The notes below the pieces were generated by a model. That model saw nothing but the letters and a program-made list of their open reading frames with translations. It ran no database searches and was not told the DNA's origin. Shown here one piece after another: positions 20,985 through 32,259 of a stretch of 42,460 bases of DNA. The DNA comes from a virus. How positions within the stretch are numbered: position 1 is the first letter of the stretch; every line of letters starts with the position of its first letter. The position numbers and the translations under genes are program-made. Where the stretch lies: IMG/VR virus record IMGVR_UViG_3300009417_000013, positions 1 through 42,460 of that record. One strand, given 5' to 3'.

Positions 20985-21030
20985 TCTTATAGTTTTCTGT
21001 TACAAAATTTGGTTAAATCCGTTTAAAATA

Positions 21031-21123
21031 GCCCCGATAGCAGCGGTATGGTGGGAATGTATCCACCATAATAGCGGATAGCGGGACCATACGCCACGAC
21101 GAAGCTCCTGACAGTTCGCTCCT
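21031..21123 (+). repeat. Dispersed hairpin element, copy 1
   Basis: About 93 bp, reading GCCCCGATAGCAGCGGTATG, then a TGGTGG/CCACCA hairpin with a GAATGTAT loop, then GCGGATAGCGGGACC, then a CGACGAAGCTCC box and TCGCTCCT. It fills the gap between the capsid gene and the coiled-coil head gene. Related copies are at 32141-32259 and, inverted, at 34045-34137. Confidence 0.85.
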
Positions 21124-26208: not shown

Positions 26209-27360
26209 ATGCAGCATTTATATTTACTTTTGTTACTCTTAATTCCAAGTATCTTACTTGGACAAACCCCAATAGGAGTCCAGGAAAAGGAAGAAATCAG
26301 ACAGTTCATCCTACAGATTCAAGGTGGTGCTGAAAACGCCATTCTACCATCTTCTAATGACCAAGTAGTTTTTAATGGAAACTATCCAGTTGATAATGAC
26401 AAATTACTCCACAAAATAGATTTAGGCAAAGTTTTATTCTATGATGGTGAAACGAATTGTGGGTTATGCCACAATCCCGATTTTTCGGGTTTCCCACATA
26501 TTAATCCTGCTATTGGCTTTGGTGGAATAGGAAATGGGCCTGAAAGGGTCAAAGATTCTTTGGCGACGGAATTCGATATTCAACCTGTGGCTACGAAATC
26601 ACAACTAAATTCGGGCTACAATAAAATTGTTCTACATGATGGATCAATGGGCTATGGAGGTCGAAATGCGGATCTTCCCGATTCTATTTTAGCCAAGCAT
26701 GAAGTGAATTTCTTACAAGGGGATGGTACAAATACCCAGAGTATAGTCGGTGTAAAGGTACACCGTACTTTTGATATTGATGCTTGTCGTAACAACCCAT
26801 TGATAAATAAATCCTGTGAGGAGGTCTATGGAGTGCCTATTATAGACGAATTCATTGTAGGTGATGCTATCGCTACCTGGGAGAAAAGTACCGATAATAT
26901 ACCTTACAATGCTCCATACCAACGATTCTTGAAAGGAGATTTAAATGCCATGACTAATCTTCAGATAAAAGGAGCTACAATTTTCTTTGGAAAGGCGCAA
27001 TGTAATAGCTGTCATTATGGACCAGCCTTAACCTCCGATACATTTGCCCAAAAGACTACAAAAAAACCATATGAAGGGGTACCTGGTAGATCTGGATTCA
27101 CTAAAAACCCTGAAGATTTATGGGAAGTAAGAACACTTCAGTTGTATAATTTAAAAGATGCAAAGTTTCTTTTTTGGGAGGGAGAGTACACGACGTTTAG
27201 CGGTGGAATCAAAGCCCACCAAAAGACACTAAATTTACCTAATCTTACAGGGAGCGAACACAAAGCTCTGGTCGATTTCGTAAAAAACGGACTCTACGAC
27301 GAATCAATCAAAGACCGCATGCGATTCGCTGGCGATCACATTTTAGAAAAATACTTTTAA
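26209..27360 (+). CDS. Exported di-haem cytochrome c peroxidase (CCP/MauG family)
   Basis: Reduces hydrogen peroxide with electrons from a cytochrome, in the periplasm. 383 residues with a signal peptide (HLYLLLLLLIPSILLGQT). Two haem-binding motifs: CGLCH (84-88) preceded by LGKVLFYDGETN, and CNSCH (265-269) preceded by IKGATIFFGKAQ and followed by YGPALTSD. The second half shows the family's AIATWEKS and PYQRFLKGD segments. Length is normal. It is a lone plus-strand gene with a 2-bp gap to the next one. A respiratory/detoxifying enzyme is unusual cargo for a prophage; it may protect the lysogen from oxidative stress. An ACAATA-like box on the minus strand (26179-26192) lies upstream. Confidence 0.9.
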   Translation: MQHLYLLLLLLIPSILLGQTPIGVQEKEEIRQFILQIQGGAENAILPSSNDQVVFNGNYPVDNDKLLHKIDLGKVLFYDGETNCGLCHNPDFSGFPHINPAIGFGGIGNGPERVKDSLATEFDIQPVATKSQLNSGYNKIVLHDGSMGYGGRNADLPDSILAKHEVNFLQGDGTNTQSIVGVKVHRTFDIDACRNNPLINKSCEEVYGVPIIDEFIVGDAIATWEKSTDNIPYNAPYQRFLKGDLNAMTNLQIKGATIFFGKAQCNSCHYGPALTSDTFAQKTTKKPYEGVPGRSGFTKNPEDLWEVRTLQLYNLKDAKFLFWEGEYTTFSGGIKAHQKTLNLPNLTGSEHKALVDFVKNGLYDESIKDRMRFAGDHILEKYF

Positions 27361-27361
27361 T

Positions 27362-27940
27362 ATGAATTTAAAAGAAGAATTTCAGGAGATTCCTACAACT
27401 GATTTACAAGTAATCTTAATCGAAAGCGAATTAGAAGAAGATTATGAAGCTTGTACTTTAATCAGAGATGAATTAGAAAGGAGGAAGGAGGAAGGAGGAA
27501 AGAAGCCTAAAGAGAAATATCTAACACATTTACTTGAGCGACCATTTAAGTATCTTTTTTTCGATGATTATATCAAATTTAAAACAGGATTGGAAATTAC
27601 TTTTCAAAGCAATCATGCTATCCCACCATATTTCTGTTTTTCTCAAATCCCAGCAAATGACGTTTCCGTTTATCCACTCAATATACACAATGAAGCCGAT
27701 GTCATAAAAAGCCACATCCTCAAAGAACTTGACAAAAACAATCTAATCATCTTAAAAAGCAATATAGACTCTTTCATCAAAAAGAATGTAAGAACTTATA
27801 AAAGATGTGGCGTTTTTGAAGTCATGCTAAAAGGATGTATCAAAAATCAGGAAGAAGATATTTTTCTTTTCAGCTATAACTTCACTCGTTATTCTGGTAT
27901 CAATACAAAAAAAGAACTTATTATAGAGATTCCTAAATAG
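27362..27940 (+). CDS. Hypothetical protein with UVR-like motif
   Basis: 192 residues. Residues 13-40 (DLQVILIESELEEDYEACTL, then IRDELERRK) fit the short helical UVR motif that mediates protein contacts in UvrB, UvrC and ClpC-type proteins. A Lys/Glu-rich linker follows, then a strand-helix domain of about 140 residues with no match I know (PPYFCFSQIPANDVSVYPLN; SNIDSFIKKNVRTYKRCGVF). It begins 1 bp after the peroxidase stop, so the two are co-transcribed. It ends 10 bp before the left arm of the terminator that holds the CRISPR array. Confidence 0.55.
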   Translation: MNLKEEFQEIPTTDLQVILIESELEEDYEACTLIRDELERRKEEGGKKPKEKYLTHLLERPFKYLFFDDYIKFKTGLEITFQSNHAIPPYFCFSQIPANDVSVYPLNIHNEADVIKSHILKELDKNNLIILKSNIDSFIKKNVRTYKRCGVFEVMLKGCIKNQEEDIFLFSYNFTRYSGINTKKELIIEIPK

Positions 27941-27950
27941 ACATAAAAAA

Positions 27951-28145
27951 AGCCCACAGTCAATAGGATTTCAATTCCAAGATGGTTCGATTAAAACTGC
28001 GTAACTACGGAGCGTTAAACCGTTGTCTCCTATATTTCAATTCCAAGATGGTTCGATTAAAACTTCAAAAATTTTACAGGACGAAACAGATGAAGCAACA
28101 TTTCAATTCCAAGATGGTTCGATTAAAACCCATTGACTGTGAGCT
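27951..28145. terminator. Bidirectional terminator whose loop is filled by the CRISPR array
   Basis: AGCCCACAGTCAAT(AGG) at 27951-27967, preceded by seven A, is complementary to CC-ATTGACTGTGAGCT at 28130-28145, followed by ATTTTTTT. The minus-strand RNA pairs 14 bp with one G-U, plus GG/CC with a bulge, and ends in seven U. It lies just past the metalloprotease stop. The left arm shares AGCCCACAGTC with the ordinary terminator at 30405-30430. What would be a short loop is 162 nt long and holds exactly three CRISPR repeats and two spacers. Confidence 0.75.
27968..28129 (-). CRISPR. Orphan mini-CRISPR array: 3 identical 30-nt repeats, 2 spacers of 36 nt
   Basis: Repeats at 27968-27997, 28034-28063 and 28100-28129 are identical. 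On the plus strand they begin ATTTCAATTCCAAGATGG and end TTCGATTAAAAC. Read on the minus strand they begin GTTTTAATCGAACC and end GGAATTGAAAT, like type I-B and III repeats whose crRNA handle is ATTGAAA plus one base. Spacers are 27998-28033 and 28064-28099. No cas gene is in the window. Only 22 and 27 nt separate the array from the stop codons on either side, so there is no leader. In the minus orientation it lies in the 3' UTR of the metalloprotease gene, and host Cas proteins would have to process it. Confidence 0.88.
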
Positions 28146-28151
28146 ATTTTT

Positions 28152-30377
28152 TTACCTTATCAAAACTTTCGCCTCAACCATTCCCCCCTCTCGCCATGTT
28201 TGTTGTGGATGTGATTTATATCCACGATTAGACGTGATTAAAATATCATAACGACCTCGTTCTACATCTAAAAGAAGCCTATCTTTTAATTTTCGTCCTG
28301 ATTCAGAGGAAATATAAACCAATTCTCCCGGATCTCCATAAAAACCATTATGATTCAAGTCTATCCAAATGAACCAGGTTGTTTTGGTTCTGCTTTTTTG
28401 TTCTAAAACCATATCATAACGAATGCCTTTACGAAGTGAAAACTCTTCATCGCTTCGATGAACACCCCCCTCTTTTAATTTGATTTCTGTATTCCGAATT
28501 TTGATACGTTTAACGTATAATATATCCGTTCGCTCAACTTCATAATCATTCCATTCCCCTCGATAACCAATTGGTATTGGTTTTGTATAATCACTATTAT
28601 ATCCTGCTTCGTAAATACTGATTTCAGTGAAGTTTTTATCAAAGCCAAAATGAAACCAAGCGAACCGATCCACACCGTTACAACTTGCAATTTTCACATA
28701 GATGTAACCGCTTTTGTTTTTCCATTCCCCTCGATCAAAGAATACTTTTTTCCCAGACAATCCACCGCCAACTTTTTGAAACTGTCCCCTATCAGGTTTC
28801 CCTGAAGATAGTTTTTTGATCTTTTGGCTGTTTTCCTCGCATAAGACAAATACTTCCTCATTTAGCTCTGTATAAAAAATGAAAGAATTTTCCTTTCCAC
28901 CAACAACGCCAAACCATCCTAAATCTTCTAAGAAGATTCCTTTCCAACGTCCTTGTTTATATTGCAATGTTAGAAACTCCATTTTGCTCCCTTGCTTACC
29001 TATGTATCGCTGATATTTTATTTCATATTCATTGATAAATAAAATGCCAAGTCCTACTATATTCTTTTTAGTTGGAACTAATCCTTCAAAAGCACTTGAA
29101 AAAAATTCGATTGAAATATTCTTAATATTGTTCTGTTTTTCGTGCATTTCTGCTTTTCCTACACAACGAAGCTCTACCCTATTTGCTGCGGTGCGTCTTA
29201 TACGCATATTTAAGCCCTTTGGCAAATTCCTGACCACATAATCACTTGGTAAAATACGAGCCTTAAAACGGCTATCACAGCCTATTAACTCAATCTCTAA
29301 TGGTGTATTGATTCGTCCATCATTTTGAAAGCCTTCTACAAAAAAGACAGAGGTACTAACTAATTGCGCCTTGATTGCATTGTCTAATTCAGTTTCAAAA
29401 ATCATCTCATTTTCAACACCTATTTTATTGCGTCCTGCTACATCAGAACTAAGCGTTTGGTAGGCTTTTTCTCTTTGTCCAGGCGTGAACATAATTTCGG
29501 CACCATAGTCCATGACGTTGTAGATATTACCAGGGCCACTGCAACCGCTTTCAAAATCACTTCCTTCTGCATCTATTGGCAAAACGATTGCATTAGCCCC
29601 GATAGTATTGGGTGTGTCCGCAATGCCATCATCAAATTTACAATTAGCCCTATCGCCTACAGTTCTATATTCCAAACGTCCATCGCTTCGATCATCGCCC
29701 CAGGCATGGGCTAATCCTAACCAATGCCCTACCTCATGTGCAAGTATATGTTCTCTATTGGTATCCAGAGCCAAACCTGTTTTGCCTAAATAACCTTTTG
29801 CAATAACAATACCATCTTTATAAGTTGAATTAGGAGAATCAACCAGCTCTGGATAAAACGCATAGCCACTTGCTCCGTTAATTGCATCGACGACCCACAC
29901 ATTCAAATACTTACTTCGATCAAAAAACGCTTCTTTTTGTAAATCGCCCAAACTATAACCAACAGGACGCTCATAGTAAAATACACCTGTTATTCGATTT
30001 CCTACTTCGTCGTAGTCCGCTATCTGAAAATCCATGTCCATAGAGACCTGATCTTCAAAAAACATATTGCCCTCAATCAAACGGTCTTCATTCGTCGCAC
30101 TAAAATCTGCATTCAAATCTTGTACGGCTCTTTCGATTTGTTCACGTTCTACTTTGTCAGTCTCGCAGCTCTTTGTGACGATATGGAAGACAAGCGGAAT
30201 CGTTCGTTTTTGATAATCTATATCAACTCGTTTCGTTTTTTCCAATTTTGCACCGTTGGCGTGGCGTTCCAATTGGCGTTCCAAATCACAACATTCTTGT
30301 GAAAACATCGAACAAAAAATACAAGTGGTCAATAACAACAACATTAAGATTCCTCTTGATAATTTCTTCAAATTCAT
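28152..30377 (-). CDS. Secreted M43 (pappalysin-type) zinc metalloprotease with GEVED-like domain
   Basis: 741 residues with a signal peptide (ILMLLLLTTCIFCSMFS). The M43 catalytic domain spans about residues 55-335: zinc site HEVGHWLGLAH (214-224, three His and catalytic Glu), preceded by KYLNVWVVDAI, and Met-turn NVMDYG near residue 290. Residues 340-640 are beta-rich with repeated GEW segments (DRGEWKNKSGYIYVKIASC; YRGEWNDYEVERTDILYVK). The C-terminal 90 residues (TTWFIWIDLNHNGFYGDPGE) look like a GEVED domain, common in secreted Bacteroidota enzymes. No clear type IX sorting domain follows. It is bracketed by two related terminators. Likely lysogen cargo that degrades external proteins. 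Confidence 0.9.
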   Translation of the reverse strand: MNLKKLSRGILMLLLLTTCIFCSMFSQECCDLERQLERHANGAKLEKTKRVDIDYQKRTIPLVFHIVTKSCETDKVEREQIERAVQDLNADFSATNEDRLIEGNMFFEDQVSMDMDFQIADYDEVGNRITGVFYYERPVGYSLGDLQKEAFFDRSKYLNVWVVDAINGASGYAFYPELVDSPNSTYKDGIVIAKGYLGKTGLALDTNREHILAHEVGHWLGLAHAWGDDRSDGRLEYRTVGDRANCKFDDGIADTPNTIGANAIVLPIDAEGSDFESGCSGPGNIYNVMDYGAEIMFTPGQREKAYQTLSSDVAGRNKIGVENEMIFETELDNAIKAQLVSTSVFFVEGFQNDGRINTPLEIELIGCDSRFKARILPSDYVVRNLPKGLNMRIRRTAANRVELRCVGKAEMHEKQNNIKNISIEFFSSAFEGLVPTKKNIVGLGILFINEYEIKYQRYIGKQGSKMEFLTLQYKQGRWKGIFLEDLGWFGVVGGKENSFIFYTELNEEVFVLCEENSQKIKKLSSGKPDRGQFQKVGGGLSGKKVFFDRGEWKNKSGYIYVKIASCNGVDRFAWFHFGFDKNFTEISIYEAGYNSDYTKPIPIGYRGEWNDYEVERTDILYVKRIKIRNTEIKLKEGGVHRSDEEFSLRKGIRYDMVLEQKSRTKTTWFIWIDLNHNGFYGDPGELVYISSESGRKLKDRLLLDVERGRYDILITSNRGYKSHPQQTWREGGMVEAKVLIR

Positions 30378-30404
30378 AATTGATATATTTTAAATAAAAA
30401 AAAA

Positions 30405-30430
30405 AGCCCACAGTCTTACGACCATGAGCT
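30405..30430 (-). terminator. Terminator downstream of 30452-30934
   Basis: On the minus strand AGCTCATGGTC pairs with GACTGTGGGCT (with G-U pairs) across GTAA, followed by ten U. It shares its AGCCCACAGTC arm with the terminator that encloses the CRISPR array at the other end of the metalloprotease gene. Confidence 0.85.
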
Positions 30431-30451
30431 TCAACACGTATAAGATACTCT

Positions 30452-32140: not shown

Positions 32141-32259
32141 ACCCGATAGTAGTGGTATGGTGGCGGTTGAGACACACGGCCGTGTGTCTCAACATAAGCC
32201 ACCATAAGAACGGATAGCGGGCCCATGCATTGCGACGAAGCTCCCCACCGTTCTCTCCT
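32141..32259 (+). repeat. Dispersed hairpin element, copy 2, with a 28-bp palindrome in the loop
   Basis: It shares with copies 1 and 3 the opening ACCCGATAGTAGTGGTATGG, the TGGTGG/CCACC stem, CGGATAGCGGG, CGACGAAGCTCC and the TTCTCTCCT end. Where the others have a GAATGTAT loop, this copy carries GTTGAGACACACGG and its exact complement (32166-32193), a GC-rich 28-bp perfect palindrome. Stem conserved, apex replaced: the hairpin itself seems to be the selected feature. Confidence 0.88.

Follow-up and report, generated by a model that had tools for sequence, protein, structure and literature searches.

A leaderless mini-CRISPR array with type I-B family repeats within the loop of a predicted transcription terminator in a probable Bacteroidota phage

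We describe a short CRISPR array lying in the loop of a bidirectional transcription terminator in a virus genome (IMG/VR record IMGVR_UViG_3300009417_000013; hereafter the window, that is, the whole stretch of 42,460 bases that was analysed). We consider, with a probability of about 0.6, that this locus is a leaderless phage mini-array with repeats of a type I-B family, serving as a 3' UTR guide array for the Cascade I-B of the host against other elements, and its purpose is probably to turn the CRISPR machinery of the host on competing viruses. The window contains integrase, terminase, head maturation protease and tape-measure-like genes and, since its terminase is akin to that of Polaribacter phage Leef_1, it most likely corresponds to a temperate tailed phage of Bacteroidota.

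The array consists of three identical 30-nt repeats with a periodicity of 66 nt, separated by two 36-nt spacers that are unrelated to each other (Table 1). It therefore has the near-identical direct repeats of 23–47 nt and the unique spacers of similar length by which CRISPR arrays are defined. A preliminary description of this DNA had placed the repeats and spacers exactly between the two arms of a terminator stem, in a gap between two stop codons. Both points were confirmed: 0 nt separate the ends of the array from the arms, and the intergenic gap is bounded by the stop codons of the gene for a 192-aa protein (plus strand) and of an M43 metallopeptidase gene (minus strand). The span of 27951–28145 originally given for the array does contain it, but takes in arm sequence, the array proper extending from 27968 to 28129.

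Table 1. Features of the window at and around the array (positions on the plus strand of the window)
Feature	Position	Strand	Remarks
Di-haem cytochrome c peroxidase (CCP/MauG) homologue	26209–27360	+	First gene of the convergent pair; PF03150, 2e-11
192-aa protein, no assigned function	27362–27940	+	Convergent neighbour reaching the terminator
Terminator arm: A-tract plus GCCCACAGTCAATAGG	27945–27967	.	On the minus strand, 3' arm and U-tract after the array
CRISPR repeat 3, leader-distal	27968–27997	-	Minus-strand sequence GTTTTAATCGAACCATCTTGGAATTGAAAT; Rfam CRISPR-DR2
Spacer 2, 36 nt	27998–28033	-	Target not found
CRISPR repeat 2	28034–28063	-	Rfam CRISPR-DR2
Spacer 1, 36 nt	28064–28099	-	Target not found; plus strand open as SKILQDETDEA
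CRISPR repeat 1, would be leader-proximal	28100–28129	-	Direction from the leader side in ten chromosomal arrays; Rfam CRISPR-DR2
Terminator arm: CCATTGACTGTGAGCTATTTTT	28130–28151	.	On the minus strand, 5' arm directly before repeat 1
Secreted M43-type metallopeptidase	28152–30377	-	Pfam PF05572, 8e-12
Plain terminator of the same type (AGCTCA...TGTGGGCTTTT), without array	30403–30432	-	About 25 bp upstream of the M43 start codon

The two arms can pair in the RNA of both strands, with the minus strand giving the strongest pairing (MFE −60.5 kcal/mol, z = −3.65). The helix joining the two flanks scored 24.5, whereas the highest score among 2000 shuffles was 16.5 and that among 33 other arrays belonging to this repeat family was 11.0. 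Since this score exceeds those of all the shuffles and all 33 arrays, the pairing of the arms cannot be attributed to chance. When the flanks were joined without the array, folding yielded an ordinary terminator, whose 15-bp stem closes a 3-nt loop and is followed by a T7 tract (−24.0 kcal/mol), and the joined flanks have the GC-bearing stem, the short loop and the U-tract on both strands by which a bidirectional intrinsic terminator is recognised. With one repeat placed in the loop, the folded stem became longer and continuous (−35.2 kcal/mol), as a result of pairing between the repeat ends GTTTTAAT and ATTGAAAT. The full array makes a loop of 162 nt, with which the hairpin may or may not terminate transcription efficiently; the outer stem has a pairing probability near 1 in the folding model. 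The location of the array inside the loop of a transcription terminator, as first proposed, is thus upheld by the pairing of the arms, the folding of the flanks and the comparison with the 33 arrays.

The window repeat is, on the basis of its sequence, a member of a type I-B CRISPR repeat family. A relaxed repeat pattern identified 52 stretches in 84,980 species genomes, and arrays of this family, with 8 to 106 repeats, were found in Chitinophaga, Bernardetiaceae, Prevotellaceae and other taxa, in Bacteroidota and beyond. Close relatives of the window repeat in genome arrays differ from it at 2–5 positions, the nearest (Ignavibacteria, L044) having two differences. In Chitinophaga solisilvae, a family array directly follows a complete I-B operon (cas6b-cas8b-cas7-cas5-cas3-cas4-cas1), and, in a Bacteroidales MAG, the 36-kb contig that carries the family array also contains I-B cas8b-cas7-cas5 genes. 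The Rfam model CRISPR-DR2 matched each of the window repeats over 30/30 positions (E = 0.0004, below the gathering score). The match to the I-B repeat family and that to CRISPR-DR2 rule out a chance repeat or an iteron-like tandem. The repeat, initially attributed an I-B/III form, fits type I-B best, rather than type III.

The exact window repeat was absent from the 84,980 species genomes and from the sampled relatives, and a direct search of viral and genome collections for exact or near repeats retrieved none, the relatives described above having come from the relaxed pattern. The exact repeat was present in no collection searched, and thus pointed to no host. The preliminary description had proposed a comparison of the repeat with the arrays of the host and of Bacteroidota, and the absence of its repeat from relatives, named there as counting against the array, was borne out only in part. 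Comparison with the arrays of Bacteroidota provided near-identical repeats accompanied by I-B cas operons, but not the exact repeat; the relatives also include a syntenic prophage with a mini-array of its own (see below).

Two other loci with repeats of this kind deserve mention in their own right. On a Candidatus Poribacteria contig (L042:220–520, minus strand), a solitary I-B repeat lies between promoter-like sequences (TTGCAA, TATAAT) and a terminator-like hairpin, a layout that looks like that of a stand-alone repeat RNA gene. At L117 (G888:C26:19860–19889), two degenerate I-B-like repeats, 54 nt apart, are found just after an apparent recombinase gene, and these may possibly be a relic array on a mobile element.

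Ten chromosomal arrays with repeats from this family share a leader motif (TCGTCG...GACGA), located ~107–127 bp (about 118) upstream of the GTTTTAAT side, and the leader side in these arrays indicates that the direction of transcription would correspond to the minus strand in the window. The motif was absent from the window array and from both of the other phage arrays considered here, and none of the 51 window ORFs was a cas gene, in agreement with the preliminary description on both counts. A leader is needed for canonical adaptation, but not for the status of mini-array, and the window carries what is expected of a phage mini-array: a short array, in a viral genome, with no cas genes. According to our proposal, minus-strand transcripts of the M43 peptidase gene would include the array in their 3' UTR. 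No evident promoter was found close to the array, and a terminator is located ~25 bp before the M43 start codon, which makes expression of both the M43 gene and the array uncertain. This second terminator is strong and leaves little room for a promoter before the M43 start; it may be an attenuator.

The best relative of the window phage that we found is a prophage-like contig of 43.6 kb from a Chitinophagales MAG (G010:C268, hereafter c268), with syntenic genes for an integrase (32%), a terminase (29%), a tape measure protein (37%), a DUF11 protein and a di-haem cytochrome c peroxidase (26%). Between its integrase and terminase genes, prophage c268 has a mini-array, again cas-less and leaderless, with five repeats and four spacers. 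Apart from these repeats, the family pattern had no match in the 6.1-Mb MAG, which encodes a Cas6b. The last repeat is interrupted close to its 3' end by the A-tract of the plain terminator immediately downstream, and a promoter-like TAnnTTTG sequence of the Bacteroidota type precedes the first repeat by ~116 bp. The site after the cytochrome gene of c268, which matches the place of the window array, has a plain terminator, no array and different neighbours. It had been suggested that the same terminator without an array should be sought in related prophages; a true empty site with both window flanking genes was not found, because we found no close relative with the M43 and 192-aa genes.

The cytochrome gene itself, which encodes a di-haem cytochrome c peroxidase/MauG with CxxCH motifs and a signal peptide, has its homologue at the matching place in c268 (L068:13522–14787, plus strand). 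It has thus been kept in two distantly related temperate Bacteroidota phages, in an orientation opposing that of the late genes, and it had no PHROG match. The window also contains, in an intergenic gap, an Rfam Flavo-1 RNA (21026–21092, plus strand; 45.4 bits, above the gathering score), which was not found in c268.

A third array, with six repeats (L067:681–1036), is present in an unrelated phage (IMGVR_UViG_2778261583_000002; holin, amidase and tail genes), downstream of the holin and amidase genes, and its last repeat runs into a terminator. In c268 and in this third phage, the whole terminator lies downstream of the array, whereas in the window the array lies in the loop. A terminator right after the last repeat is not a trait confined to phages, as it also occurs in the chromosomal arrays L019, L026 and L051; these were the three convincing cases among the 5 of ~43 chromosomal array pieces flagged by our terminator detector. 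Three more viral contigs had no array, nor was any seen among the prophages with related terminases examined in another bacterial family, so the arrays appear to be sporadic accessories. The three cas-less phage arrays considered here (3/3) all adjoin or occupy an intrinsic terminator, and it could be that such arrays prefer these sites, where they would be transcribed in a 3' UTR and acquire a defined end; in the window, the hairpin would be split, with a long-range stem coupling termination to the folding of the array. We regard this broader idea as speculative and rather unlikely to hold.

When 50,697 phage and 72,556 plasmid records were searched, none of the 11 spacers from the three phage arrays had a usable protospacer, and the two weak plasmid matches obtained with BLAST (E values of 0.2 and 0.6) both concerned spacers of the third phage only. 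A codon-degenerate pattern revealed no protospacer for spacer 1, and the window spacers had no usable match in the related prophage. Self-targeting or mutual targeting by the window phage and prophage c268 was rejected, as the matches did not exceed those of shuffled controls, except for one weak match of spacer 2 (25/36 at window position 32226, versus a maximum of 23 in 30 shuffles), which we did not take as real. A tiny, leaderless array whose spacers have no known targets, and which belongs to a type occurring sporadically among relatives, might be an inert relic that recombined from a host array into a non-coding terminator loop, where it is harmless and without present function. However, all three window repeats are identical, with no decay, and both the related prophage and the unrelated phage keep similar arrays, the repeats of which are mostly intact. 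We consider an inert relic to be fairly unlikely.

We favor a guide array used by the phage, and propose that a single repeat or a short array entered the loop of a pre-existing bidirectional terminator, a gap in which an insertion would harm no gene and in which the insert would extend the stem. Cas6b of the host would cut within the repeats of the transcript, giving rise to up to two crRNAs, and these would be loaded onto the Cascade I-B of the host, so that other mobile elements are excluded to the benefit of the lysogen or the infecting phage. The terminator hairpin would, in this scheme, provide a landing site and a transcript end, rather than a device for crRNA maturation.

The preliminary description had instead suggested that the hairpin trims or protects the 3' end of the crRNA. 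An active contribution to guide RNA biogenesis could take the form of a closed pre-crRNA, a protected 3' end or Cas6-dependent termination, and the folding model is compatible with it, in that both arms are predicted to join the ends of repeats 1 and 3 in one continuous helix with a pairing probability near 1, a helix present in 1 of the 34 arrays compared, that of the window. In type I-B systems, however, Cas6 cuts inside each repeat, which would remove the terminator arm from every crRNA. A role for the hairpin in the formation of the crRNA 3' end is therefore unlikely, since Cas6 would part the last repeat from the arm. Moreover, both of the other phage arrays have an entire, plain terminator downstream instead. 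We consider an active hairpin very improbable and did not retain this part of the earlier interpretation; what stands is a cas-less, leaderless I-B phage mini-array in a terminator loop. A neutral or expression-giving landing site is a simpler explanation than a hairpin protecting the crRNA.

Leaderless phage mini-arrays raise two questions: how they are transcribed and how phage genomes acquire them. The window locus suggests an answer, with arrays located at the terminators of gene ends and read as 3' UTRs. If this proves correct, overlooked arrays and solitary repeats could be sought in terminator hairpins, and the pair of syntenic prophages, one with its array in the loop and the other with its array beside a plain terminator, constitutes test material.

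Virus-borne mini-CRISPR arrays have been described in the Saccharolobus portogloboviruses SPV1 and SPV2 (Medvedeva et al. 2019, PMC6858448). Like the window array, these have one or two spacers, are carried by a virus and lack cas genes, and their repeats are of the host type; they differ in having promoter-bearing leaders and spacers matching a rival virus, whereas the window array has no leader, no target found and a site in a terminator loop (PMC6858448). Leaderless, cas-less mini-arrays are known in bacteriophages and prophages (PMC6858448; reviewed in PMC11656645), and the window locus fits this class. The known phage mini-arrays are stated to have repeats identical to those of the host (PMC11656645); the window repeat had no exact counterpart in the genomes searched.

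Solitary phage repeats act as RNA anti-CRISPRs, or Racr (PMC10651486), and the window array shares with them a phage-encoded CRISPR repeat RNA of intergenic origin. The RNA of the window locus could accordingly be a Racr-like decoy, its repeats occupying the Cas6 or Cas7 of the host with no guided cleavage, and folding predicts that the putative single-repeat ancestor would have been a strong, stable hairpin RNA. However, Racr are solitary repeats without spacers, and the published search for them kept solitary repeats and set aside clustered repeats and mini-arrays (PMC10651486); the window has three perfect repeats with two full-length spacers of normal size between them. We therefore judge a decoy of this kind to be decidedly unlikely, and the guide array remains our preferred reading.

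In the leader-repeat hairpins of type II-A and VI-B systems, as in the window, upstream sequence pairs across repeat sequence, but in these systems the pairing is between leader and first repeat and prevents stray crRNAs (PMC13187072), whereas in the window the upstream arm pairs with the arm beyond the last repeat, forming a terminator. Text searches of literature that included few subscription papers revealed no CRISPR array in a terminator hairpin, and the accessible portions of the reports on phage mini-arrays make no mention of such a position (PMC6858448, PMC11656645). Thus, phage mini-arrays are already known, and the new part is the nested position of this array in a terminator loop, together with the recurrence of such arrays at terminators.
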